From NCBI GenBank assembly GCA_038373865.1, contig JAXGGA010003029.1:46173-110172 (forward strand): a stretch of 64,000 bases of DNA, in the 5' to 3' direction. Source of the DNA: Uloborus plumipes (Eukaryota; Arthropoda; Arachnida; Araneae; Uloboridae). Below, piece after piece: positions 39,521 to 50,118 of the stretch. A program made the translations under genes and the position numbers. The notes beneath the pieces were generated by a model. It was not told the DNA's origin. It made no database searches and saw only the letters and a list, made by a program, of their open reading frames with translations. How positions within the stretch are numbered: position 1 is the stretch's first letter; every line of letters starts with the position of its first letter.

Positions 39521-39538
39521 ATACATCATGTATACATG

Positions 39539-39963
39539 AGTAGGGTAATAATGGGCGTTCTGCAACGGCAGGAGGCTGTGCGGCTCAGCCGCCTCCCAGA
39601 GCCGCCTGTGACCTCCCCTCCGCCGCCTGTGACCTCCCCTCCGCCGCCTCCCCCACCCAATCCGCCGCCTCCTCCCACAGCCGCCTCCCCAGGGCCGCGA
39701 GGATTTTAGTTTTGGGATGGCAACATCCAAGTTTTGATTTCTTGAAATGGCAACAGGTTTGGTTGTCATGCCAACCAATGTTTTGGTTTCTTTGAATGGC
39801 AACACTTGTGTAATATTTTACAGAGTTAATTTCGATCGTGCTGCCATCTATCGATGGAATTATTTATTTTTCTTGAACTTTGAATATTTTCACGAACTTA
39901 ATTTTATTTTAGGTGCTCGTGGCGCCATCTATTGAGTGAACGAATTTAATTCTTTTTTTTTTA
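39539..39963 (+). repeat. Left terminal inverted repeat of the Maverick
   Basis: It pairs with 49684-50099. The outer 170 bp are GC-rich with two copies of a CTGTGACCTCCCCTCCGCCG-type unit; the right arm has three. The inner part reads GTTGCCATTTCAAGAAATC inverted and GGCGCCATCTATTGAGTG. The left arm also has an extra stretch of about 25 bp (GGGATGGCAACATCCAAG) absent from the right arm. Arm identity is otherwise high. Confidence 0.85.
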
Positions 39964-39984
39964 TTTTCGGACTTAGTCAATTTC

Positions 39985-40063
39985 CCGAAGCGGGGTTCGA
40001 ACTCGAACCAAAAGTTTTCCGCTTGCTTATCAGAAGAATGCGCAAGCCAACTACGCTATGGTG
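39985..40063 (-). repeat. tRNA-like sequence in the left Maverick end
   Basis: The minus strand has a perfect A box TAGCGTAGTTGG and a B box AGTTCGAACCC (9 of 11), about 50 bp apart. It points toward the left end of the element. Its mirror position on the right is held by another tRNA-like segment (49561-49650) of different sequence. Confidence 0.5.
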
Positions 40064-40326
40064 TTCTTACTCTCGACAGTGCTAATAGGAATCACAATAT
40101 AATTTAAGATTATATCGCCGTCTGTTGATTACACGATGATGTTAATTTGCATGCTAACTTATTTTGTAATTCGAACTTTGTTTAATTTTTAAGACTTAGT
40201 TTTTGTAACCTATTTCAATATAATTTTTGATTTTAAAGAACGATGATGCTGACATCTGTTGATGGAAATTTATTTTTTTTTCGAATTTAATTATTTCTTC
40301 GAACTTAATTTATTTTTCAAGCCGAA

Positions 40327-40800
40327 ATCGGACTTTGTCAATGAAAATTAATTTTTTTATGTTTACGATAATCCGACCCTGTGTAATGATTAACTAATTT
40401 TTTATTAACCTACTAATTTAATTAGTAATTAGTCGAATTTAATTAATTTCACACCATCGAAAGATAATATTATTTAGGAATTCCCAACTTTGCATGCTTC
40501 TTTACGAATTTTACAGTTTTTCAGTTTGCCCCTCTTGCTTTTACATGTTAATTTAAGAACTTTAACTTTTTTTCTACGAGTTTAATTTTCTTTTTCGGAC
40601 TTTGTCGATTTTTTCAGACCGAAATGGGAACTTTGTTAGTGAAAATTAATTTTTTAATACTGTTGATCGCTGTAATGAATAACTATTTGTAATTGCCCCA
40701 TCATTTTAATTAGTAATTATTCGAATTTAATCAATTTCACACCATCGAATGAGAATATTATTTAGGAATTCCCGACTTTGCATGCTTCTTCGCGAATATC
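40327..40800. repeat. Subterminal tandem repeat, unit about 285 bp
   Basis: Two copies share GTTAGTGAAAATTAATTTTT-like sequence, TTTAATTAGTAATTA, TTCACACCATCGAA, ATATTATTTAGGAATTCCC and GACTTTGCATGCTTCTT (about 40335-40515 and 40620-40800). No protein frame. The stretch 40064-41277 before the oxygenase gene is otherwise AT-rich; a small frame at 40833-41027 is not supported. Confidence 0.7.
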
Positions 40801-41277
40801 AATTGAAGTTGTAGACTCACCCGTTCGACACGATGTCAACTCGTACATATCCCGATTTTCAGGGAGGATTTCTCGGCAAGCTCTTTCCTTGGGTACCTTC
40901 TCCATCCACAAAATGCAAGCTACTACATAGAAGTCGAACACTCAACTGGCGTGTAATCAGAAAGATAAGTGAATCATTACTGATAACTGATGACCACGTG
41001 ATTGTCCACGGATTAAACATCGGATGATATTGATAAGCTTGCGGTTAGGGGTCGATGAATCAATGTCTACAAGAGTGGGTCCCTACCTCATGTGATAAGA
41101 GATTACACATACTTTCTTGTGATTATCTTGATGATTAAATGACACGTGATGTTTAATCAATCCGACTGCAACGCCACGAATTGATATCTCATTGTGACCA
41201 TTTCCAAATGCATTCTTCCTCCTGATTTCATTGTGTTCAGTTGCTAGTTTTATGCTGGTTGAGAAATTAAAAAAAAA

Positions 41278-43062
41278 ATGGATTACGCACTTTCTTCAAA
41301 TGCCCTGAACGTTCAAGTAAAAGAACGCTTTTACACTCGTACAGAAGCTGATGCTATATTCAAAGAACTTTTAAACATTCCATTTCAACCCATTAATGTT
41401 GTGGTGTACGGAAAACATTATACACCGAAACGCAAATCGTATGCCTTCGGTGACGAAGGACTGGACTATCGTTACTCCGGCACCTCGAATCCGGCTCATA
41501 TGTGGAATCCGATGATGTTGAAAATTAAAGAGGATGTTGAAAAGGCTACGGGCAAGTCATACAAGTATGCCCTACTCAATTTTTATCCAGATGGAAGTGC
41601 AGCTCTTGGCCAGCATAAAGACAACGAGAAAAGCATAGATCCATCCAGCGGCGTTGCCTGTGTCAACTTTGAAGTCTCCAGAACCCTCTCCTTTGAAAGA
41701 CTTGGATTCCCGCCTCAAGAATTAGAGTGTCAGCATGGTAGTTTGTATGTTATGCTGCCGCCCACCAATGAACTATTCACCCATGGGATTAAACCCAACA
41801 GAGCTGTGACTCTGCCGAGGATCAGCATCACCTTTCGAAACATCATGAGCAATGTGATCCCACCTGCAACGAAACGTTTGTGGTCCGAGACGTGGACCCT
41901 GGATGATTTTCCTCTCTTCAGTCAGTCTGAAATGGAAATTGTATCGACTAGCTCTCCACGTCGAAGAAAAGTTCCATGCCGAACTGCCCTCCCTCAATCT
42001 GTTTTTAAAAGTGGAGAATCGAACCTCGAGAATGCATCGACGATGATATGCACCCCAGCGGAGATGTGCACTACATCAGAGATGGACGACCCCGTGGAGA
42101 TTGACAACCCAGTGGAGACGTGTATCCCAACGGAAAAGATTGAAGTTCCAACATTAGAGAAACCTCTGCTGAATCCCTCGCCCCTTGTGTCTTCAACAAG
42201 CTTGACCGAATCTGTGCAAAGTTCCTCTCCGAGTGACACAGTGTTTAAAGTGTCGTCTTCTTCTTCTCAGCCATCCGCCGGAGAACAATCAGCGGATTGG
42301 CTTGACATATTCTTACAAAATGCATTCAAACGTTTTGACGAGCGCAACTTAAACGTTTTGGAGCTCGATAATGATCTTCAAATTAATGTGTGTTTACGAA
42401 AAAATGGAAAAATCACGATTGTGCTTGAAAATAGTGTTTCAGGTGTTAAAATTAATTTTCAACCACTGAGTTGGATTTATTTTCAAAGAAAAATATGGGA
42501 ATACAATTCCAGATACTCCAGCAGTAATTTTGTAGCAGGAAACGATGCACTTGTTGTTTGTAGAAATGGTGACTGTGAAATTTATCAACTTGTAGAAACC
42601 GTTGAAGAATTTGCGATGAAGAAAGGATGTATCGTCCTCAGAGAATACGATATAAAGAAAATAAAGGAAGATAATATGAGTTTAGATGAAAAAATTTTGG
42701 AGGCCGTATTTGATCATTTCCGACAAATGTTAAAATGCGAAGAAATGCAATTTTTTCAAAATCCTGTTGACGAAGTGGAAACATTTGAAATTATCTTTGA
42801 CTGTTTTATCGGAGAAATGCGTGCATGTATTAACATGAACTATGAATGTACAGGATGTAAATGTAATCATCCCTCACAGAAGCGACACGAATGCATGTCA
42901 CTAACAGTAAAAGAAAAATATTACACTATGGATAACAACATTTTTATATGCATTGACTTTTTAAAACTCGTAAATGATTTATCTACTAAAGTGAAAATGT
43001 GTGATAATGAAATTAAAAAAATGACTGTGGAGTATTTGAAAGCTCTAATGGATGATTTGTAA
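41278..43062 (+). CDS. AlkB-like 2OG-Fe(II) oxygenase with long C-terminal extension
   Basis: 594 aa, ATG at 41278 after an A-rich leader. Residues about 10-190 form an AlkB-type dioxygenase: NFYPDGSAALGQHKDNE holds the iron ligands H113 and D115, then HG(S) and FTHGIKP with H169, then RISITFR with R181 and R187 to bind 2-oxoglutarate. This order is typical of ALKBH2/3-like enzymes that remove alkyl groups from nucleic-acid bases. Residues about 225-330 are a Ser/Thr/Pro-rich linker. Residues 330-390 (ICLRKNGKI-like strands, then an aromatic helix) look vaguely like a PC4-type DNA-binding fold (speculative). The C terminus has a Cys-rich patch ECTGCKCNHP. It is the only rightward gene of the element and takes the space normally held by polymerase. 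AATAAA lies at 43093. Confidence 0.85.
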   Translation: MDYALSSNALNVQVKERFYTRTEADAIFKELLNIPFQPINVVVYGKHYTPKRKSYAFGDEGLDYRYSGTSNPAHMWNPMMLKIKEDVEKATGKSYKYALLNFYPDGSAALGQHKDNEKSIDPSSGVACVNFEVSRTLSFERLGFPPQELECQHGSLYVMLPPTNELFTHGIKPNRAVTLPRISITFRNIMSNVIPPATKRLWSETWTLDDFPLFSQSEMEIVSTSSPRRRKVPCRTALPQSVFKSGESNLENASTMICTPAEMCTTSEMDDPVEIDNPVETCIPTEKIEVPTLEKPLLNPSPLVSSTSLTESVQSSSPSDTVFKVSSSSSQPSAGEQSADWLDIFLQNAFKRFDERNLNVLELDNDLQINVCLRKNGKITIVLENSVSGVKINFQPLSWIYFQRKIWEYNSRYSSSNFVAGNDALVVCRNGDCEIYQLVETVEEFAMKKGCIVLREYDIKKIKEDNMSLDEKILEAVFDHFRQMLKCEEMQFFQNPVDEVETFEIIFDCFIGEMRACINMNYECTGCKCNHPSQKRHECMSLTVKEKYYTMDNNIFICIDFLKLVNDLSTKVKMCDNEIKKMTVEYLKALMDDL

Positions 43063-43092
43063 GTACTTTTCCAAATATTATTGAAAATGTTC

Positions 43093-43098
43093 AATAAA
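43093..43098 (+). terminator. Poly(A) signal of the oxygenase gene
   Basis: AATAAA lies 31 bp after the stop codon. A minus-strand AATAAA (43197-43202) overlaps the stop of the convergent block, leaving an intergenic gap of about 140 bp with a poly(A) signal for each direction. Confidence 0.6.
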
Positions 43099-43200
43099 TG
43101 TATTATTTTGTTTAACTTTTTTTTTTCTATGTTTTCATTTGCATGCATTTAATCAATAATGATCAGAGAGAGACAATGATTCAATAGCAATTTTTTTTTA

Positions 43201-43839
43201 TTAATACATACTATCCCATTTTACATTTGATTTTCTCTTCCTTTTGTGATGATTAACAATTTTAGGAGAAAGAACAGGTTTTCCATCATCTTCTTCAGTG
43301 ACAATTTTCTTTTCATACAGATTTTTATTTTTCACGAAAAATTTAGGAACATTCATTTCTTGTAATGAATTTAAAAATTCATTTATCCACGGAATATCGG
43401 CATTTTTTTTCTTGTGACTGAAAATCAAATTTAATAAATCAGCAATATTCGAATGTTCAATCTTCTGATTTTTATAAATGACTTCACCCTTCTCGTTCCA
43501 TGTGAGGATATCGGAATGTCTTTTCATAATGTCTAATAAGTTGTGAGCTTGATTCAAGTATTGTTTATTAATACTGTTGAATATAGTCGACTCGTATTGC
43601 TGAGGATTTTCTTCTGCTTTACTTTCTTCTCGAGGTGGGATCCAAGGAGGGTTATTTTCTGCTAGATTTAATTTCTTTTGCAGTAATTCTGTATACTTTG
43701 CCAATTTTTCATGTTCTTCAAGATTGCTTTGCAAAATATTCATCATCTGCATATCAAGTTCGCTTAACTGTTTCGGTGAAACAGTATGCTTTGAAACCAT
43801 CTCTTCAGGAATTAGAGCGTACTTCCTCGCGTGGTCCAT
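43201..43839 (-). CDS. Maverick protein of unknown function, 212 aa
   Basis: ATG at 43839; the last gene of the leftward block. The N terminus (YALIPEEMVSKH) and the helical, charged body rich in E, K and N resemble small conserved Polinton proteins of unknown role. Residues about 20-65 are likely coiled coil. A hydrophobic segment IADLLNLIFS lies near 135, and the C terminus is strongly basic (HHKRKRKSNVKW). It overlaps the preceding gene by 35 bp in another frame. A structural or DNA-binding role is only a guess. The stop codon overlaps a minus-strand AATAAA. Confidence 0.7.
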   Translation of the reverse strand: MDHARKYALIPEEMVSKHTVSPKQLSELDMQMMNILQSNLEEHEKLAKYTELLQKKLNLAENNPPWIPPREESKAEENPQQYESTIFNSINKQYLNQAHNLLDIMKRHSDILTWNEKGEVIYKNQKIEHSNIADLLNLIFSHKKKNADIPWINEFLNSLQEMNVPKFFVKNKNLYEKKIVTEEDDGKPVLSPKIVNHHKRKRKSNVKWDSMY

Positions 43840-44158
43840 TGCCGAAAAGTGTTGATAATATATTCACAGCAGCGGGAATAAGGAAACTTAGAAAACCGCC
43901 TTTTTGAACAACCAACTTTCGTTTCTTAGCTAAAGCTAATTTTCGATCAGCTAGCTTACGCAGAGTTGTTTTATGCTTTGATAAGTTCTTCTTTTGATGT
44001 TTCGAGAGAGGTATATTTCCACAGAGCACGTTGTGGCTGCACTCACATATAGCCCTGATACAATTCACATTGATTTTTTTCAGTAACTCTTTTTGCAGCT
44101 TTGCAGGGCAAATTTGCAAGAGATGTAGCTCATTCAGCTGTTGCTTCGTGATTGTCAT
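43805..44158 (-). CDS. Small Maverick protein with basic centre and hydrophobic tail, 117 aa
   Basis: ATG at 44158. Helical N terminus (LNELHLLQICPAKLQKELL), then a lysine-rich region of about residues 55-85 (LADRKLALAKKRKLVVQ), then KGGFLSFLIPAAVNILSTLF, a glycine pair followed by an apolar helix. Polintons commonly encode a short protein of this layout. The GG step is a plausible cleavage site for the adenain-type protease encoded two genes upstream, releasing a membrane-active or DNA-binding peptide by analogy with adenovirus minor proteins. That processing is inferred. It sits 38 bp after the ATPase gene. Confidence 0.7.
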   Translation of the reverse strand: MTITKQQLNELHLLQICPAKLQKELLKKINVNCIRAICECSHNVLCGNIPLSKHQKKNLSKHKTTLRKLADRKLALAKKRKLVVQKGGFLSFLIPAAVNILSTLFGNGPREEVRSNS

Positions 44159-44196
44159 GATTGCAAATGATTTGCATTATTTATATCTTTACATTT

Positions 44197-44859
44197 TTAT
44201 ACTGCTCTTCTTTGGTATATGAATTGCGTTTCGTTGGGAAGAATATTTGTGCGTAATCTCATTTTTTCAGGAGTGTCATTTCTCAAGTCAATCAATAGAT
44301 AAGAAAAATTTTTCTTGGTTGCGTCATCAAACACCTCTTGGAAAAATCTCAAATGTCTTGGGAAAATCTGTTTCCCCAAATGAGTCACTTGACTCAAATC
44401 TCTCCTATTTTTGAAAAGAAGGATGTAATGTGCATTTAAAGTAATTTCACGCATTTCTTTTCCTTTGTGAAAGAAATTCTGTGTAATAAATATAATTGAA
44501 ATGTTGAGATGGTGACTTCCGCGGGTAAATAGTTTTGTGATGGCATCATTTTTTCCACACTCAGCCATCAGATCATCAATGATAAATAATGTATTATCAC
44601 CTAACAAGTCCATATAATTCGTGGGAAATCCTTCGATGAATGTAACATCGGGTATCGTATCATACAAACTTTGATACACACCATAGAACCATACGACTTT
44701 GTCCGGTACTTTTGAAAACATTTCATGTCTATGTTTCAAAATACGTGAAATAAGATGACTCTTCCCACTTCCGGTTGGACCCGACGCCACCATGGTAAAG
44801 CTAACTTGTAACTTTGGAAATTCCATCGTGAATGAGAGACAGACAAGAATGATATTCAT
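44197..44859 (-). CDS. DNA-packaging ATPase (FtsK/HerA, A32-like)
   Basis: 220 aa. Walker A GPTGSGKSH at about residues 27-35, Walker B LFIIDDLM at about 91-98, and a conserved ISIIFITQN strand at about 120-128, as in packaging ATPases of Polintons, virophages and large DNA viruses. The expected role is to pump the element's DNA into a capsid. An alternative start at M12 (MEFPKL) is possible; the first ATG at 44859 is kept because it is only 12 bp from the preceding stop. Length is usual for the Polinton family. No break seen. Confidence 0.9.
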   Translation of the reverse strand: MNIILVCLSFTMEFPKLQVSFTMVASGPTGSGKSHLISRILKHRHEMFSKVPDKVVWFYGVYQSLYDTIPDVTFIEGFPTNYMDLLGDNTLFIIDDLMAECGKNDAITKLFTRGSHHLNISIIFITQNFFHKGKEMREITLNAHYILLFKNRRDLSQVTHLGKQIFPRHLRFFQEVFDDATKKNFSYLLIDLRNDTPEKMRLRTNILPNETQFIYQRRAV

Positions 44860-44871
44860 TTAAATGCAAAT

Positions 44872-45345
44872 TTATTGATTGAAATTCGGAAATACATGAA
44901 AATAATTGGCTACAAAATTATAGACACTTTTATCATTACAAACATGTTTGTTCACAAAAGTTGACAATATGGTTTTCAGTGAATGACCGCGACATTTTGA
45001 ATATAAGTAATAAATACAATATTGGCCACACACGGCCGTGACATTACTTTGCAAGGTCATAGGATTATAAGTCACATTTGGGAATTGAGATACAAAATCG
45101 TGAATATGGCCTTTGAAAAAAGATGGTGGATTTCCATAAGAATCAAAAAATTCCAGTTGACGATCAATATAAAAAGCCACCCAATGGCTTCCAGATTCGC
45201 CCGACTTGTCCACATTTGCAATAAAACAGGCTGGGGTCTTATTAATTTTGATATCACTTAAATAATCACTGGGAAACACTCCCAGAAAATATTTTTTGGT
45301 GATTGAATCGCTTTGCAGAACACTTTGTATTTGATTCGAATCCAT
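44872..45345 (-). CDS. Adenain-like cysteine protease
   Basis: 157 aa from the ATG at 45345, which is 1 bp after the stop of the capsid gene. Catalytic pattern: H54 in GSHWVAFY, an acidic partner D68 in FFDSYG, the oxyanion Gln Q99 in TLQSN, and C106 in VCGQYC. The Gln-to-Cys spacing of seven matches adenovirus proteases, and the CG step is shared with Ulp1/SENP enzymes. Such proteases mature virion proteins. The gene lies between the capsid and ATPase genes, a usual Polinton neighbourhood. All catalytic residues are present, so it may be active. Confidence 0.88.
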   Translation of the reverse strand: MDSNQIQSVLQSDSITKKYFLGVFPSDYLSDIKINKTPACFIANVDKSGESGSHWVAFYIDRQLEFFDSYGNPPSFFKGHIHDFVSQFPNVTYNPMTLQSNVTAVCGQYCIYYLYSKCRGHSLKTILSTFVNKHVCNDKSVYNFVANYFHVFPNFNQ

Positions 45346-45346
45346 T

Positions 45347-46654
45347 CTAATTGGCAAAATCGCATAACACGTGACGTGACTTTGTAATTTCGATCACGTT
45401 TTGAAATTCTGCATAGACTAGCAATGATAGAGTTTCGGCGATTGCTTTGCTAAATTTAATTTCAACTCTCAAATTTCCTTGATGTTGTAAATTTAAATGA
45501 GGTCCGTTACACATATCAGCAGAGAGATCGAAACAATATAATGCATTTCCTTTTGAAAATTGTTCACGCGATACATAGTTACCCTTATCACTGTTAAATC
45601 CTTCAAACAGACTGTAGTAAGCACAAATGTAATTATTACTTTCAAAATCTAGTTCCAATGGTTTACTCGGTACAGGTTGACCGTCTACATAAATAGCAAC
45701 AAAATTTGCATTATGATGAGCAAACAGAAATGGATTCTTGTGATATTGTCCGTTCATGGCAGCATTTTCAACACATCCAATCACCACTCTTTTAGGCATT
45801 ACACCTAAAAATACATTATCTTGTGTGAAGGAAAAACTTCCTTTCGAAATAGAATAGGTCTTGCATAGAACTCGGTCGATGGGATACTTGGCTGAAGTTT
45901 CTTCTAAAGCCTTTGCATGCCCGAGAGAAACACCAGGGCTGACTTGCACTTTTCGAATGAATAGAGAGGCATGATCTAATACAACTTTATAGTCGGCACC
46001 TTCTTTGTTTGACAAGAGGCAGAACGGAGCACTACTTCGAATCATCTTAATTTTAATATCGACCAAATTTAACATAAGGCGATTCTGTTCGAAAATATCA
46101 CAGTGGAGCTTTCCGAGAAGTTCGAAGTCGTTACTATTTTTACTGAGTTCGTATCTTGCTTTTAATCCGTCATCTGCTCCTTCAGCGGTGGGATCGATTT
46201 CAGTAGGATTGGAGTCTTTGTAAAACATCTCACAGGTGAGTAAACTTTTCTTTGCATCTTCTCCATAATTTAAAAGAGTTTCAATATATGCACGATAGGG
46301 ATAGGTATTGCTTGCCGAAGATATATTTCGCTCATTCAAGCTGACGTCGATTTGTGAAAAAAGAGAATGCAGGAATAAGTTGGTCGGGACAACGGGTTCT
46401 TTGACAGGTAACACGGATCCATCAGGTTTGACTATTTTCACTTTCAGGTAGATGTAGGAAGCTGAGAGGTCTGCATATTCTGATCCTGATCCTGATATTA
46501 AGTACTCCAGAGGACCACCATCTTTCACACTTGCAATAGGATGATATTCAACAAATTGTCCCTTTTCAATAGCGGCCTGAGTAGGAGGCAGCGTAAATAA
46601 GTCTAGTTCAGATTTCACACATGCTTCGGAATCGCGATGGATGAGAGATGCCAT
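45347..46654 (-). CDS. Major capsid protein candidate (F54H12.2-like)
   Basis: 435 aa, ATG at 46654. From recall, it resembles the family widely annotated as uncharacterised protein F54H12.2-like, found in many invertebrate genomes beside Maverick integrases. The N terminus has FTLPPTQAAIEKGQFVEYHP, then many beta-strand-like stretches (ASYIYLKVKIV, IDVSLNERNI, DFELLGKLHCDIF, SFSFTQDNVFLGVMPKRVVI). Length and strand density suit a double jelly-roll capsid subunit, but the fold was not tested. It is flanked by the protease and core-like genes. No frame break is visible. Confidence 0.75.
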   Translation of the reverse strand: MASLIHRDSEACVKSELDLFTLPPTQAAIEKGQFVEYHPIASVKDGGPLEYLISGSGSEYADLSASYIYLKVKIVKPDGSVLPVKEPVVPTNLFLHSLFSQIDVSLNERNISSASNTYPYRAYIETLLNYGEDAKKSLLTCEMFYKDSNPTEIDPTAEGADDGLKARYELSKNSNDFELLGKLHCDIFEQNRLMLNLVDIKIKMIRSSAPFCLLSNKEGADYKVVLDHASLFIRKVQVSPGVSLGHAKALEETSAKYPIDRVLCKTYSISKGSFSFTQDNVFLGVMPKRVVIGCVENAAMNGQYHKNPFLFAHHNANFVAIYVDGQPVPSKPLELDFESNNYICAYYSLFEGFNSDKGNYVSREQFSKGNALYCFDLSADMCNGPHLNLQHQGNLRVEIKFSKAIAETLSLLVYAEFQNVIEITKSRHVLCDFAN

Positions 46655-46664
46655 TTTTTTTTTC

Positions 46665-47081
46665 TCAAGAGAAAATATCGTGATGTCTTTTCACCCTCTT
46701 GGTTTTGTGAAGACTGATTCGCTTCTTGAAAAGCTTACGCTTTTTATTCTTTTTCCCAGAACCAATCATAGTTTTAATTTTGACAGCAGCCTTATCAGTC
46801 AATTTTTTTCCAGCTTCTTTCAGGCGACGCTTCGCAGCCACTTTCAGATTTTCGCCGCGTGAAACATCATTGAATAAGTCAACACCACTATTCAAAATTT
46901 GCTTTCCGACGGTCTTAGCTCCTGATTTGAAAAGGGGAACCGCAGCTCTGAAAAAAGATTTGAAGAGACCTCCGAAACCATATCCTCTTTGATATGGAGC
47001 GCCTTGATAATAACTAAGTCCATTTCCAGATTGTTGAGTGTAATAATCCTCGAAGGATTTTTGGCAGCATTGATATGGCAC
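46665..47081 (-). pseudogene. Basic virion core-like protein, stop at codon 2
   Basis: The open frame (138 codons counted from GTG at 47081) is very basic. It has a glycine/aromatic N terminus (YYQGAPYQRGYGFGGLFKS), a KSGAKTVGKQILNSGVDLF helix, AAKRRLKEAG and a lysine/arginine tail with KKNKKRKLFKKR. This layout is common in Polinton proteins thought to be minor virion or DNA-condensing proteins. The expected ATG (47087-47085) overlaps the upstream stop as TAATG, but the second codon is TAA (47084-47082). Expression would need readthrough, initiation at GTG, or a transcript I cannot see. The rest of the frame is intact. Confidence 0.75.
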
Positions 47082-47086
47082 TTACA

Positions 47087-47833
47087 TTATGAAAGATACT
47101 TCTGACGAAAGTGAAGTTTCACGTACGATCTTCCACGCTCAAATGGCACTAGCAGTCCAGTGTTGGTCCTTATAACGATTTCAATAGTGTCTATAATTTT
47201 TCTACTCACAGGTAGATAATGGGGTCTTTCATATTCAACACTGACCATCTCCCCGTCTGTACCTGTAACCGTAACCGTGCGAAGGAGGGGTGCATAAACA
47301 TCTCCCACGACTTGATGTTCGATAATATCCGTGTAAATCATCAACACTCTAAAGTGAGCATTCGGATCAGCGATTTGTGGGCTGAACACTGTCTGTTCCA
47401 CATTTTTGTCGCTCTCGCCGCCAACAACCATCGGTGGAAATCCCAACATCTGGGATAATCCTTCATGAAAGACAACGCGTGCATTGTTTTTGACTTTGAC
47501 ACGTACACGTTTTGTCACAGCATTATAGTTGAAGGAAATTCGATTCTCATGATCAGGTATAATTATCGCTTTTAAAATGTCAGGTACATTTTCATAGCAT
47601 CCAGGAGGAATATTTCTACCTAATTCTTTTCCATCACCTAAATCAAATCCAATCAAGTTATTCTCTCGGTTCACATTATACCAAGTATGAGGATAGATCA
47701 ATTCGACTAAGGCACATTCCCAATTGCCTGTTAGTTCAATTGGTTTCGGTAAACGTGTAATAAAATGTGATGTTTTATTATCGGGAAAATAATTCAAGGA
47801 ATTGTCGCTCGGTAATGTTACGAAGAATGACAT
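47087..47833 (-). CDS. Minor capsid (penton-like) protein
   Basis: 248 aa from the ATG at 47833 (MSFFVTLPSDNSL). An upstream in-frame TTG exists but the ATG is preferred. The opening FFVTLPSD, the central WECALVELIYPHTWYNV and the C-terminal IDTIEIVIRTNTGLLVPF with FERGRSYVKLHFRQ are typical of the Polinton minor capsid family, predicted to be a single jelly roll at the capsid vertices. The gene follows the integrase by 39 bp and its stop overlaps the old start of the core gene. It is apparently intact. Confidence 0.8.
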   Translation of the reverse strand: MSFFVTLPSDNSLNYFPDNKTSHFITRLPKPIELTGNWECALVELIYPHTWYNVNRENNLIGFDLGDGKELGRNIPPGCYENVPDILKAIIIPDHENRISFNYNAVTKRVRVKVKNNARVVFHEGLSQMLGFPPMVVGGESDKNVEQTVFSPQIADPNAHFRVLMIYTDIIEHQVVGDVYAPLLRTVTVTGTDGEMVSVEYERPHYLPVSRKIIDTIEIVIRTNTGLLVPFERGRSYVKLHFRQKYLS

Positions 47834-47872
47834 CTTGACAAAACTGAGCAAGTAATATCACGACTTCGATAT

Positions 47873-48916
47873 TTATAGGTCAGATAAATGAGTGGCTGGA
47901 ATCCATTGGTTGAATTTATCAGGGTACCCGCGAAATTTGACAAAATATTCTGTTTGATTTTCCTTTTTTCTCTTCCGTAAAATTTTTTCGACAGTATAAT
48001 CTTCATTAAGTTTAACTTTTTGCAATTCTTGAGGGTAAAAAGTGCCTTGAATGGGCTCGCCCATTAAATCTCTCACACGATACACAGGAATAGCTCTTTT
48101 TACACACTCTGTAATGATAAACATTTCTTCTGTCCAATTTTTCTCGTATCCTTTTTCAAAAGTGAGTTTTTGCTTGGAAATACGAACAACGTCACCGACA
48201 TTGAAACTACAAGGTTTCACTTCTGTAGCTTGATTATCGCCGTAGGTTGTGAAATACACATCACTCTCATTATCGGTGTTCACTTCTGCGGGTGCTCTCT
48301 TGATGGTCGAATGGTAAGTGATGTTATAACTTTTTACCAAATCGTCTAAGACATCTATAAAATTATAAGTATTTCGACTCGTGAAATATTTCCACATTTT
48401 TGTTTTCAATGTTCTGTTGAACCTTTCCACGATCGAAGCCTTCGTGGCGTTAAAAGTTGTAAAGAATTTGACTTGATTCTCTCGGAGAAACTTTTGAAAG
48501 AGTGCATTTTTAAATTCAGTTCCTTGATCCGTTTGCAGTAACTTTGGCTTTCTCTCAGAAAAAATAGACTTGAATGCTTCAACAATCTCACTCCCCTGTT
48601 TCGTTTTCAGAGGTATTGCCCATGCATACTTTGAGAAAATGTCAATACAGGTCAATATATATCGATAACCTCGATTATGCTTTTGTAAACTTGTAAGATC
48701 TGCGAGATCTGCCTGCCATTGGTGATCCTTTGAATGAGCAATCACCTGATTGGTTGGGAACCTCTTTCTTGCAGGACGGTGGAGCGTGTATGCATCCACT
48801 CCCGTTAAATATTTCTGAATGACTTTCTTGGGTACTTTTCCTCGCGCAGCACGATATAATGCATCGACACCACCAAAACTTGCTTCTCGACCCGGTTCCA
48901 GATAAGCCTTCTTCAT
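47873..48916 (-). CDS. Maverick integrase (rve) with C-terminal chromodomain
   Basis: 347 aa, ATG at 48916. The N-terminal region contains REASFGGVDALYRAARGK and DAYTLHRPARKRF, standard for Polinton integrases. The retroviral-type catalytic core has D70 (WQADLADL), D130 (LLQTDQGTEF) and E164 (SIVERFNRTLK), with 33 residues between the last two. An SH3-like region (FNVGDVVRISKQK) follows, and the C terminus (about 305-347, YTVEKILRKR to FRGYPDKFNQWIPATHL) is a chromodomain that may steer insertion. It makes the 6-bp duplication seen at the ends. It resembles the C. elegans transposon-derived F54H12.3 family. Complete and first in the leftward block. Confidence 0.93.
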   Translation of the reverse strand: MKKAYLEPGREASFGGVDALYRAARGKVPKKVIQKYLTGVDAYTLHRPARKRFPTNQVIAHSKDHQWQADLADLTSLQKHNRGYRYILTCIDIFSKYAWAIPLKTKQGSEIVEAFKSIFSERKPKLLQTDQGTEFKNALFQKFLRENQVKFFTTFNATKASIVERFNRTLKTKMWKYFTSRNTYNFIDVLDDLVKSYNITYHSTIKRAPAEVNTDNESDVYFTTYGDNQATEVKPCSFNVGDVVRISKQKLTFEKGYEKNWTEEMFIITECVKRAIPVYRVRDLMGEPIQGTFYPQELQKVKLNEDYTVEKILRKRKKENQTEYFVKFRGYPDKFNQWIPATHLSDL

Positions 48917-49188
48917 TGCAGCAGGAGAAATGATTATCCGACACTTTGATATGAATCATCCTCGAAACGATATGAGGGACTTAGACGTGTCATTCGGTTT
49001 AAGTAGAAAATCAACTTCAAAATCTGATTTTCCAGTTAAAATATATATTATGCCCATCACAATGCACAAACTGATATAAAGGACCGTAATCCACATAACC
49101 TCCTCTCTCGATGCCATAACTAAAAATGAAAAGGTAGTACATGCAATAAATATTTTATATTCAACACTTAAAAATTGAATAAATTTCC
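48917..49188 (-). promoter_or_regulatory. Presumed upstream region of the leftward gene block
   Basis: About 270 bp of AT-rich DNA between the integrase ATG and the first tandem unit. The promoter for the block should lie here or in the tandem repeats, but no TATA or initiator motif can be assigned. Confidence 0.35.
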
Positions 49189-49267
49189 GTCAACAGATGG
49201 CAGCAACATCGTTCTTTGACACTGAAAATTATATTGAGATTCATTTAAACCTTTACTTGAGTGAAAG

Positions 49268-49352
49268 CATTGGTGGCTCAATCGACAAAGCGCGCGGTCA
49301 ATTGAAGCATCAATACTTTTTGGATCCGAAGGTCGCATGTTCGAAACTCACC
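49268..49352 (+). repeat. tRNA-like sequence in the right Maverick end (first)
   Basis: Perfect A box TGGCTCAATCG at 49273-49283 and a weaker B box TGTTCGAAACT near 49339. It points toward the right end of the element. Confidence 0.45.
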
Positions 49353-49560
49353 CCAATCAGCGAAAAATATTCAAAGTCCCGAAAAAAAAAAAAAAAGAAT
49401 TAAATTCTATCACTCAATAGATGGCGCCACGAGCACCTAAAATAAAAATTAAGTTCGTGAAAATTAAGAAAAAAATATAATTTCATCGATAGATGGCAGC
49501 ATCATCGTTCTTTAGCACTGAAAATTATATTGGGATCATAGTTAACAAACAGGACATCAG

Positions 49561-49650
49561 ACCTCCGTAGCTTAGTCAGTTTGCGCGTTGACCAATCTGA
49601 CAGCTACGAAGGTCTTTTGTAGGTTTGAGGTTCGATCCTCACCTCGAACA
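49561..49650 (+). repeat. tRNA-like sequence in the right Maverick end (second)
   Basis: A-box-like TAGCTTAGTCAG at 49568 and a perfect B box GAGGTTCGATCC at 49628, inside TGAGGTTCGATCCTCA, which can form a T-arm. The anticodon region is unusually long. It also points outward. Confidence 0.55.
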
Positions 49651-49683
49651 CAGTAAAATTTACAAAAATATTCGAAGTCCCGA

Positions 49684-50099
49684 AATAAAAAAAAGAATTA
49701 AATTCATTCACTCAATAGATGGCGCCACGAGCACCTAAAATAAAATTAAGTTCGTGAAAATTAAGAAAAAATATAATTCCGTCGATAGATGGCACCACGA
49801 TCGAAATTAACTCTGTAAAATATTACACAAGTGTTGCCATTCAAAGAAACCAAAACATTGGTTGTCATGACAACCAAACCTGTTGCCATTTCAAGAAATC
49901 AAAACTAAAATCCTCGCGGCGGCCCTGGGGAGGCGGCTGTGGGAGGAGGCGGCGGATTGGGTGGGGGAGGCGGCGGAGGGGAGGTCACTTGCGGCGGAGG
50001 GGAGGTCACAGGCGGCGGAGGGGAGGTCACAGGCGGCTCTGGGAGGCGGCTGAGCCGCACAGCCGCCTGCCGTTGCAGAACGCCCATTAGTACCCTACT
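49684..50099 (-). repeat. Right terminal inverted repeat of the Maverick
   Basis: Inverse of 39539-39963. It contains three GGAGGGGAGGTCAC units (about 49970-50035) against two in the left arm, so the arms differ in a minisatellite. Confidence 0.85.
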
Positions 50100-50118
50100 T
50101 ACATGTGTGATCACATCA

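Follow-up and report, generated by a model that had tools for sequence, protein, structure and literature searches.

Polintons, or Mavericks, whose definition is said to go back to Kapitonov & Jurka and to Pritham et al., are named for their polymerase, the protein-primed DNA polymerase B (PolB or pPolB), and usually measure 15-20 kb. The tips of their terminal inverted repeats (TIRs) follow a 5'-AG rule. Virophages and satellite viruses possess their own capsid and rely on another virus for part of their replication. The subject here is an element of 10,561 bp with nine coding frames at positions 39539-50099 of a 64,000-nucleotide stretch (the window) of contig JAXGGA010003029.1 of the spider Uloborus plumipes. 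It resembles a complete Polinton but lacks the polymerase, and it belongs to a lineage of 10-12 kb elements without polymerase, present in many copies, that likely derives from Polintons, is likely replicated by the PolB of larger relatives, and codes for its own predicted capsid, ATPase and integrase. Position numbers are window coordinates, the genome searched is the 1.42 Gb U. plumipes assembly, and names such as C624 denote its contigs.

Tlr1 of Tetrahymena keeps an rve integrase in the absence of pPolB and encodes a large protein of several domains, among them a superfamily 1 helicase (PMC11071308); the Uloborus element equally keeps its integrase and has no pPolB, but shows no counterpart of that helicase protein. 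Polinton-like viruses and 'meldviruses' without pPolB mostly also lack the rve integrase and bring another replication protein, e.g. a primase-helicase (PMC11071308, PMC11071296); like them, the element has virion genes without pPolB, but it retains the integrase and no replication gene is seen. Adintoviruses (PMC11071296) share with it the rve integrase with chromodomain and the adenovirus-like virion genes, whereas their defining OTU-PolB is missing from the element and no replacement replicase is seen. Among vertebrate Mavericks, amplified copies carry a broken PolB, and purifying selection was found on core genes of other, intact Mavericks (PMC8097293); there PolB is present but broken, whereas its absence is a fixed structural trait of the lineage described here, in which most other genes are intact. 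Mavirus keeps pPolB and a helicase (PMC11071308). The likeness to virophages and satellite viruses lies in the own capsid and the presumed dependence on a helper, which here, unlike there, would likely be a close relative in the same genome. The literature searched, in which subscription journals were mostly not included, yielded no description of an integrase-bearing, replicase-free Polinton lineage, and no relatives were found in IMG/VR with the major capsid protein (MCP) as query.

The first-pass annotation, made from the letters of the window, had described a complete-looking Maverick/Polinton of 10.56 kb between TACATG duplications, with long inverted ends, an integrase, a protease, a packaging ATPase, two capsid-type genes and small virion genes. 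Alignment of the target-site duplications (TSDs) and TIRs and a gene scan bear this out: integrase and ATPase are recognised by Pfam, the MCP by a structure model, and the penton-like protein is assigned from size and place. For the protease, a frame and a weak Peptidase_C5 match below the cut-off were seen. The features are as follows:

39533..39538, no strand: left TSD TACATG, sequence read directly
39539..39960, no strand: left TIR with tip AGTAGGGTA (inverted-repeat pairs I1-I4)
40212..40797, no strand: two subterminal direct repeats with a spacing of 288 bp, akin to the repeats of the right end (repeat pairs D1, I6)
41278..43062, plus strand: AlkB1, 594 amino acids (aa), N-terminal AlkB/ALKBH2-like 2OG-Fe(II) oxygenase and C-terminal domain with a Cys/His-rich motif (Pfam, model, comparisons)
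43201..43839, minus strand: p212, 212-aa protein under purifying selection (frame, dN/dS)
43805..44158, minus strand: p117, 117-aa small protein, likely a virion or membrane protein judging from sequence and place
44197..44859, minus strand: packaging ATPase of the Pox_A32 type, Walker A GPTGSGKS (Pfam)
44872..45345, minus strand: putative adenain-like cysteine protease (weak sub-cut-off Pfam match)
45347..46654, minus strand: MCP, 435 aa, predicted double jelly roll, 'F54H12.2' family (structure model)
46665..47081, minus strand: pX-like frame, 138 aa, without usable ATG (frame, dN/dS)
47087..47833, minus strand: penton-like minor capsid protein, 248 aa, assigned from size and place
47873..48916, minus strand: retrovirus-type (rve) integrase with C-terminal chromodomain (Pfam)
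49165..49803, no strand: right subterminal repeats, spacing 296-298 (repeat pairs D2, D3, D6)
49687..50099, no strand: right TIR (inverted-repeat pairs I1-I4)
50100..50105, no strand: right TSD TACATG, sequence read directly

The TIRs extend over ~0.42 kb and pair in register in segments of 109 nt (98%), 98 nt (98%), 141 nt (96%) and 75 nt (99%). The tip, AGTAG, agrees with the 5'-AG rule, and the TIRs, 6-bp TSD, rve integrase with chromodomain, A32-like ATPase and MCP with a double jelly roll in the predicted structure are as in Polintons/Mavericks, of which PolB-bearing kin with a 98% identical MCP reside in the same genome; the putative adenain-like protease would be a further likeness. The differences are the missing pPolB, the length (ten PolB-less copies with TSDs measure 10,014-11,986 bp instead of 15-20 kb) and an own left arm with AlkB1. 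Since the longest gene-free stretch covers just ~1.3 kb (39.96-41.27 kb; 1.7 kb counting the TIR), a PolB gene of ~3.8 kb cannot fit. No PolB, primase or helicase profile was recognised in the eight of nine proteins scanned with Pfam (the pX-like frame was left out) or in the eight scanned with PHROGs; the packaging ATPase draws very weak sub-cut-off RNA-helicase P-loop matches in Pfam and a weak DnaC-like match in PHROGs. The lack of space for a PolB and of profile matches speaks against a hidden polymerase in this copy, in agreement with the initial statement that no polymerase, primase or helicase frame has room.

The element is not alone. Three types are distinguished: A, the window type (93-100% DNA identity); C, a sister PolB-less type differing from A by ~11% in DNA; and B, the PolB-bearing relatives. 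At least 42 genomic matches to window DNA 43000-46000 were obtained (40 of 122 candidates scored), of which 23 have an identity of 93-100% and 19 one of 86-90%. Left arms were fetched for 18 of the 21 A-type contigs besides the window, and in all 18 the AlkB gene is present, together with the window's left TIR or a part of it; the mutual identity of eight A loci is 95.5-99.9%. Both ends were inspected in 13 A copies, the window copy included. Nine of these, the window copy and the eight listed here, have perfect 6-bp TSDs, all different in sequence:

C624: TSD AACATT, 10,540 bp
C782: TSD TACCAA, 10,726 bp
C17078: TSD CACGTT, 11,986 bp
C20352: TSD AACGGG, 10,527 bp
C11206: TSD TACATA, 10,611 bp
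C3331: TSD CATGAG, 10,353 bp
C16492: TSD AGTAAT, 10,515 bp
C7605:26167-36952: TSD TACAAC, 10,786 bp, palindromic

These A copies range from 10,353 to 11,986 bp, with ~1.8 kb additional between capsid and integrase genes in C17078. The C-type copy C59 has the same layout, with 10,014 bp, the TSD ATTTTA and an open 600-aa AlkB frame. On C1560, no ends were found. Because ten left flanks compared share just one short similarity of 96 bp, the PolB-less copies are separate insertions. The genome search for copies of the same structure, proposed in the first-pass annotation as a check, thus returns many that share ends, layout and mostly intact genes, and the multiple TSD-flanked copies support its view of a true lineage instead of a random deletion. 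An assembly artefact or one-off deletion is rejected and retains next to no probability, as ten copies on different contigs (nine of type A, one of type C) have exact, independent TSDs, with that single flank similarity among ten; nothing was found in its favour.

The genes of the lineage bear marks of constraint. Ratios of nonsynonymous to synonymous divergence (dN/dS) were obtained gene by gene between A and C at a dS of 0.28-0.84, the penton and integrase values coming from the rearranged copy C35. They amount to 0.20 for AlkB, 0.11 for p212, 0.09 for p117, 0.06 for the ATPase, 0.09 for the protease, 0.05 for the MCP, 0.05 for the penton and 0.09 for the integrase; the partial AlkB gene of C35 gives 0.24. 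In each of seven genes tested, silent changes are in significant excess (binomial p 7e-13 to 3e-44). Sequence comparison therefore indicates purifying selection on each gene compared between the two types (dN/dS 0.05-0.24), and for AlkB1 this constraint acted in PolB-less elements, because no detected PolB-bearing element has AlkB1.

The separation of AlkB1 and PolB follows from coordinate distances among the listed AlkB1, MCP and PolB matches, counts to which contig ends and candidates without a score set limits. Of the 57 AlkB1 matches (83-100% identity, on 48 contigs), not one lies within 12 kb of a listed PolB match. The sole PolB on any AlkB1 contig is 53 kb away on C3029, in a separate, divergent element outside the window. 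The 64 capsid genes of at least 93% identity divide into 44 close to AlkB1, seven close to PolB and 13 close to neither, with none close to both; among 33 more distant capsid genes, 19 are near PolB and none near AlkB1. In the simplest reading, PolB is ancestral, and a derived lineage lacking it is recognisable by the AlkB1 left arm; most likely, PolB was lost once in this lineage, some time ago. On C3029, the window's contig, a divergent Polinton-like set (integrase 43%, MCP 39%, open PolB frame 42%) occupies contig positions 23875-34494, ~50 kb left of the element.

Potential helpers exist in the same genome. A PolB profile search gave 46 matches, an undercount (91 of 98 candidates scored), and a PolB protein search at least 55 places (53 of 325 scored); several genomic matches are open frames of 1227-1322 aa, while C3239, C2292 and C6046 hold one stop each within the matched PolB stretch. 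The PolB-bearing element on C3906 is complete, measures 16,474 bp and has the TSD TACGTT, an open 1269-aa PolB frame, and capsid and integrase genes. On C10017, both TIRs lie ~16.2 kb apart, with no clear 6-bp duplication at the ends, and enclose, in this order from the left TIR, a PolB frame of at least 1225 aa (L035:4499-8176, beginning with C2H2 zinc fingers), an AlkB homologue in two split frames, and a capsid and integrase module as in the window. About 630 bp flanking each end of C10017 are 98.7% alike in direct orientation and repeat-rich. The capsid protein of both elements is 98% identical to the window MCP. The left arm of C466 resembles that of C10017, its left end not being reached. 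The first-pass annotation had held that PolB between the left end and the oxygenase gene of other copies would make the window element a one-off deletion. Relatives do carry PolB at this place (C10017; C3906 by coordinates), but the consequence does not follow, because the oxygenase and the left arm of the PolB-bearing type are of another kind, and the copies without PolB form an amplified lineage in their own right. AlkB1 is probably not a PolB substitute, since a homologue is also present in PolB-bearing elements, within ~6 kb of PolB in C10017, C3239, C2292, C6046 and C9254. C11842, on which no frame besides an AlkB homologue reaches 150 aa, was set aside, as no left TIR was found in 9.5 kb.

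The two kinds also share DNA, and one such stretch lies in the window copy:

46034..47700, no strand: tract nearly identical to PolB-bearing C3906 and C10017, with the left switch between 45920 and 46034

Between 43051 and 45850, there are 0-1 differences per 200 bp between the window and the A copy C624, as against 10-40 per 200 to C3906. In the stretch from 46034 to ~47.7 kb, six or seven bases in total distinguish it from C3906, as against 7-27 per 200 from C624 (compared to 47.5 kb). Past 47.7 kb, 2-19 differences per 100 to C3906 are found, and the window integrase is of the A type, 98-99% identical to other A copies. The comparison slices of C17078 and C7417 end at 46050 and carry no information on the tract beyond. 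The pattern of differences indicates that a stretch of the PolB-bearing type entered a PolB-less copy, directly or via a hybrid copy, and because the window carries this B-like capsid tract, both kinds very likely met in one nucleus. Further A-type hybrids are C436, with C-like capsid and integrase, and C80, C4846 and C429, with B-like integrases.

The ends are shared as well. The first 21 nt, AGTAGTGTAAAAATGACAGTT, are identical in PolB-less C3331 and PolB-bearing C3906; the remaining A copies have AGTAG in common and vary thereafter. At the tip, AGTAGT, a triplet is repeated, a feature that adenovirus ends also show and that would suit protein-primed initiation with a slide. Linear protein-primed genomes undergo inverted-duplication rearrangements, and the left-arm inverted duplications of C7605, of opposed AlkB pairs and of C80 resemble these and fit PolB copying from the ends. 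In C7605, a palindromic derivative, an AlkB gene sits at each end and 246 bp separate the capsid gene from the second AlkB; there is no room for an integrase, and none is found there among 117 integrase matches scored. Since the copy nonetheless has a TSD, it seems that the integrase at least can act in trans. In C80, left and right ends are homogenised over 732 bp at 100% identity. Opposed AlkB pairs of the PolB-less type occur on C18898, C2288, C1562 and C21351.

Concerning the single proteins, AlkB1 matches 2OG-FeII_Oxy_2 in Pfam (2.4e-20), and the N-terminal part of its model (pLDDT 64, six sequences) matches human ALKBH2. Residues 338-594 contain a Cys/His motif, C-x2-C...HPSQ.RH.C, conserved in all six AlkB proteins compared; among the 50 structural rows listed per library, no match to this region alone stands out, a known fold still being possible. 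As a sequence query the region finds no homologue outside the U. plumipes genome, and the whole protein finds one weak relative. Pfam scores are 5.4e-5 (23.2 bits, just over the cut-off of 22.8) for Pox_A32 in the ATPase, 8.8e-4 (19.4 bits, under the cut-off of 21.3) for Peptidase_C5 in the protease, and 2.5e-14 for rve and 1.6e-10 for Chromo in the integrase; p212, p117 and the penton-like protein have no match at E <= 1. The MCP has a single weak Pfam match under cut-off, and its predicted model matches double-jelly-roll capsid proteins. The pX-like frame, which resembles small basic adenovirus-type core proteins, has an ATG overlapping the penton stop (TAATG, 47082-47090, minus strand) that leads immediately to a TAA within ATGTAAGT; the frame is nevertheless conserved (dN/dS 0.10-0.15, seven A copies versus the window). 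ATGTAAGT looks like a splice donor.

Taken further, these elements may form a self-packaging satellite, i.e. a stable, diversified Polinton lineage without polymerase that keeps its virion and integrase kit under selection, borrows PolB via shared ends and trades capsid genes, a reading to which we give about an even chance. On the helper reading, which we hold probable, the polymerase and terminal protein of an active relative would recognise the shared AGTAG... ends and copy the PolB-less element as linear DNA, which the element's own capsid proteins and ATPase would package; this self-packaging would explain the continued selection on the capsid genes and the ATPase. Its own integrase, or that of a relative, would then insert it with a 6-bp TSD. 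AlkB1, a predicted DNA demethylase, might repair or demark the element's DNA.

Several observations weigh against this picture. Within A, AlkB is less constrained (dN/dS 0.38-0.89 versus the window where dS > 0, on few differences), and it is damaged in five of the 18 fetched left arms, by stops in L020, L024 and L025 and by frame-shifting gaps in L011 and L022. As capsid segments are exchanged, elements with PolB could have been the place where some of the selection on the shared capsid genes was exerted, an objection from which AlkB1 is free. C7605 implies that a copy may at times do without its own genes. No TSD was found at the other four of the 13 A copies inspected: C7417 has both ends and no duplication, and in C1242, C80 and C4846 the right end was not found at the expected place. 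Inverted left-arm pieces lie inside the right arms of C80 (100800-101600) and C4846 (47150-47950) at 100% identity, which gives the terminal repeats an extended and homogenised look. PolB can escape profile searches: hmmscan of the full C10017 PolB frame missed PF03175, whereas a piece of the frame scored 1.1e-25. Both PolB searches scored part of their candidates. On C9780 (12762-22875), a C-type capsid module (94%) adjoins a PolB frame that is open over 1279 aa, and no AlkB1 match is listed there, which may reflect a further exchange of left arms. Finally, the C-terminal domain of AlkB, for which no relative was found outside this genome, may have a replication role.

Of the three options that the first-pass annotation had left standing (satellite, host replication, deletion derivative), the satellite fits best, with host replication still in play. 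In the latter case no viral polymerase would take part: the integrase would move the element, and host replication or repair would add copies, e.g. by copying excised forms. No polymerase was detected near any AlkB1 match, most listed integrase matches are without a stop, and ten copies have their own TSDs, all in favour of this option. It is unlikely, since the TIR tips, kept and common to a PolB-bearing relative, and the homogenised ends of C80 suit end-primed linear replication, and the capsid tract common to both kinds points to co-residence with PolB-bearing elements. Quite unlikely is a passive, non-autonomous derivative of the internal-deletion type, moved by autonomous relatives, whose capsid genes serve no purpose and look conserved through youth or gene conversion. 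The close similarity of the eight A loci, the B-like tract of the window copy, the TSD of the integrase-less C7605 and the relaxed AlkB within A would all be in line with it; the depth of the A-C divergence, with its low dN/dS at eight genes, including AlkB1 with no detected PolB-bearing carrier, speaks against it.

A two-component virus, in which both kinds are co-packaged partners in one system, each segment having virion genes and one of them the polymerase, could account for the common TIR tip, the common capsid modules, their exchange and the fact that AlkB1 and PolB were not found together. Yet PolB-bearing C3906 has capsid and integrase genes and should not need a PolB-less partner, and the detected copy numbers are unequal (44 versus seven at the closest capsid type), which makes this very improbable.

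If the satellite reading is true, a lineage spreading without PolB would mean that the polymerase and virion modules of Polintons evolve apart, that PolB acts in trans on shared ends, and that Polintons have their own satellites inside animal genomes. With both partners in one genome, particle formation and linear replication of animal Polintons would become directly testable.

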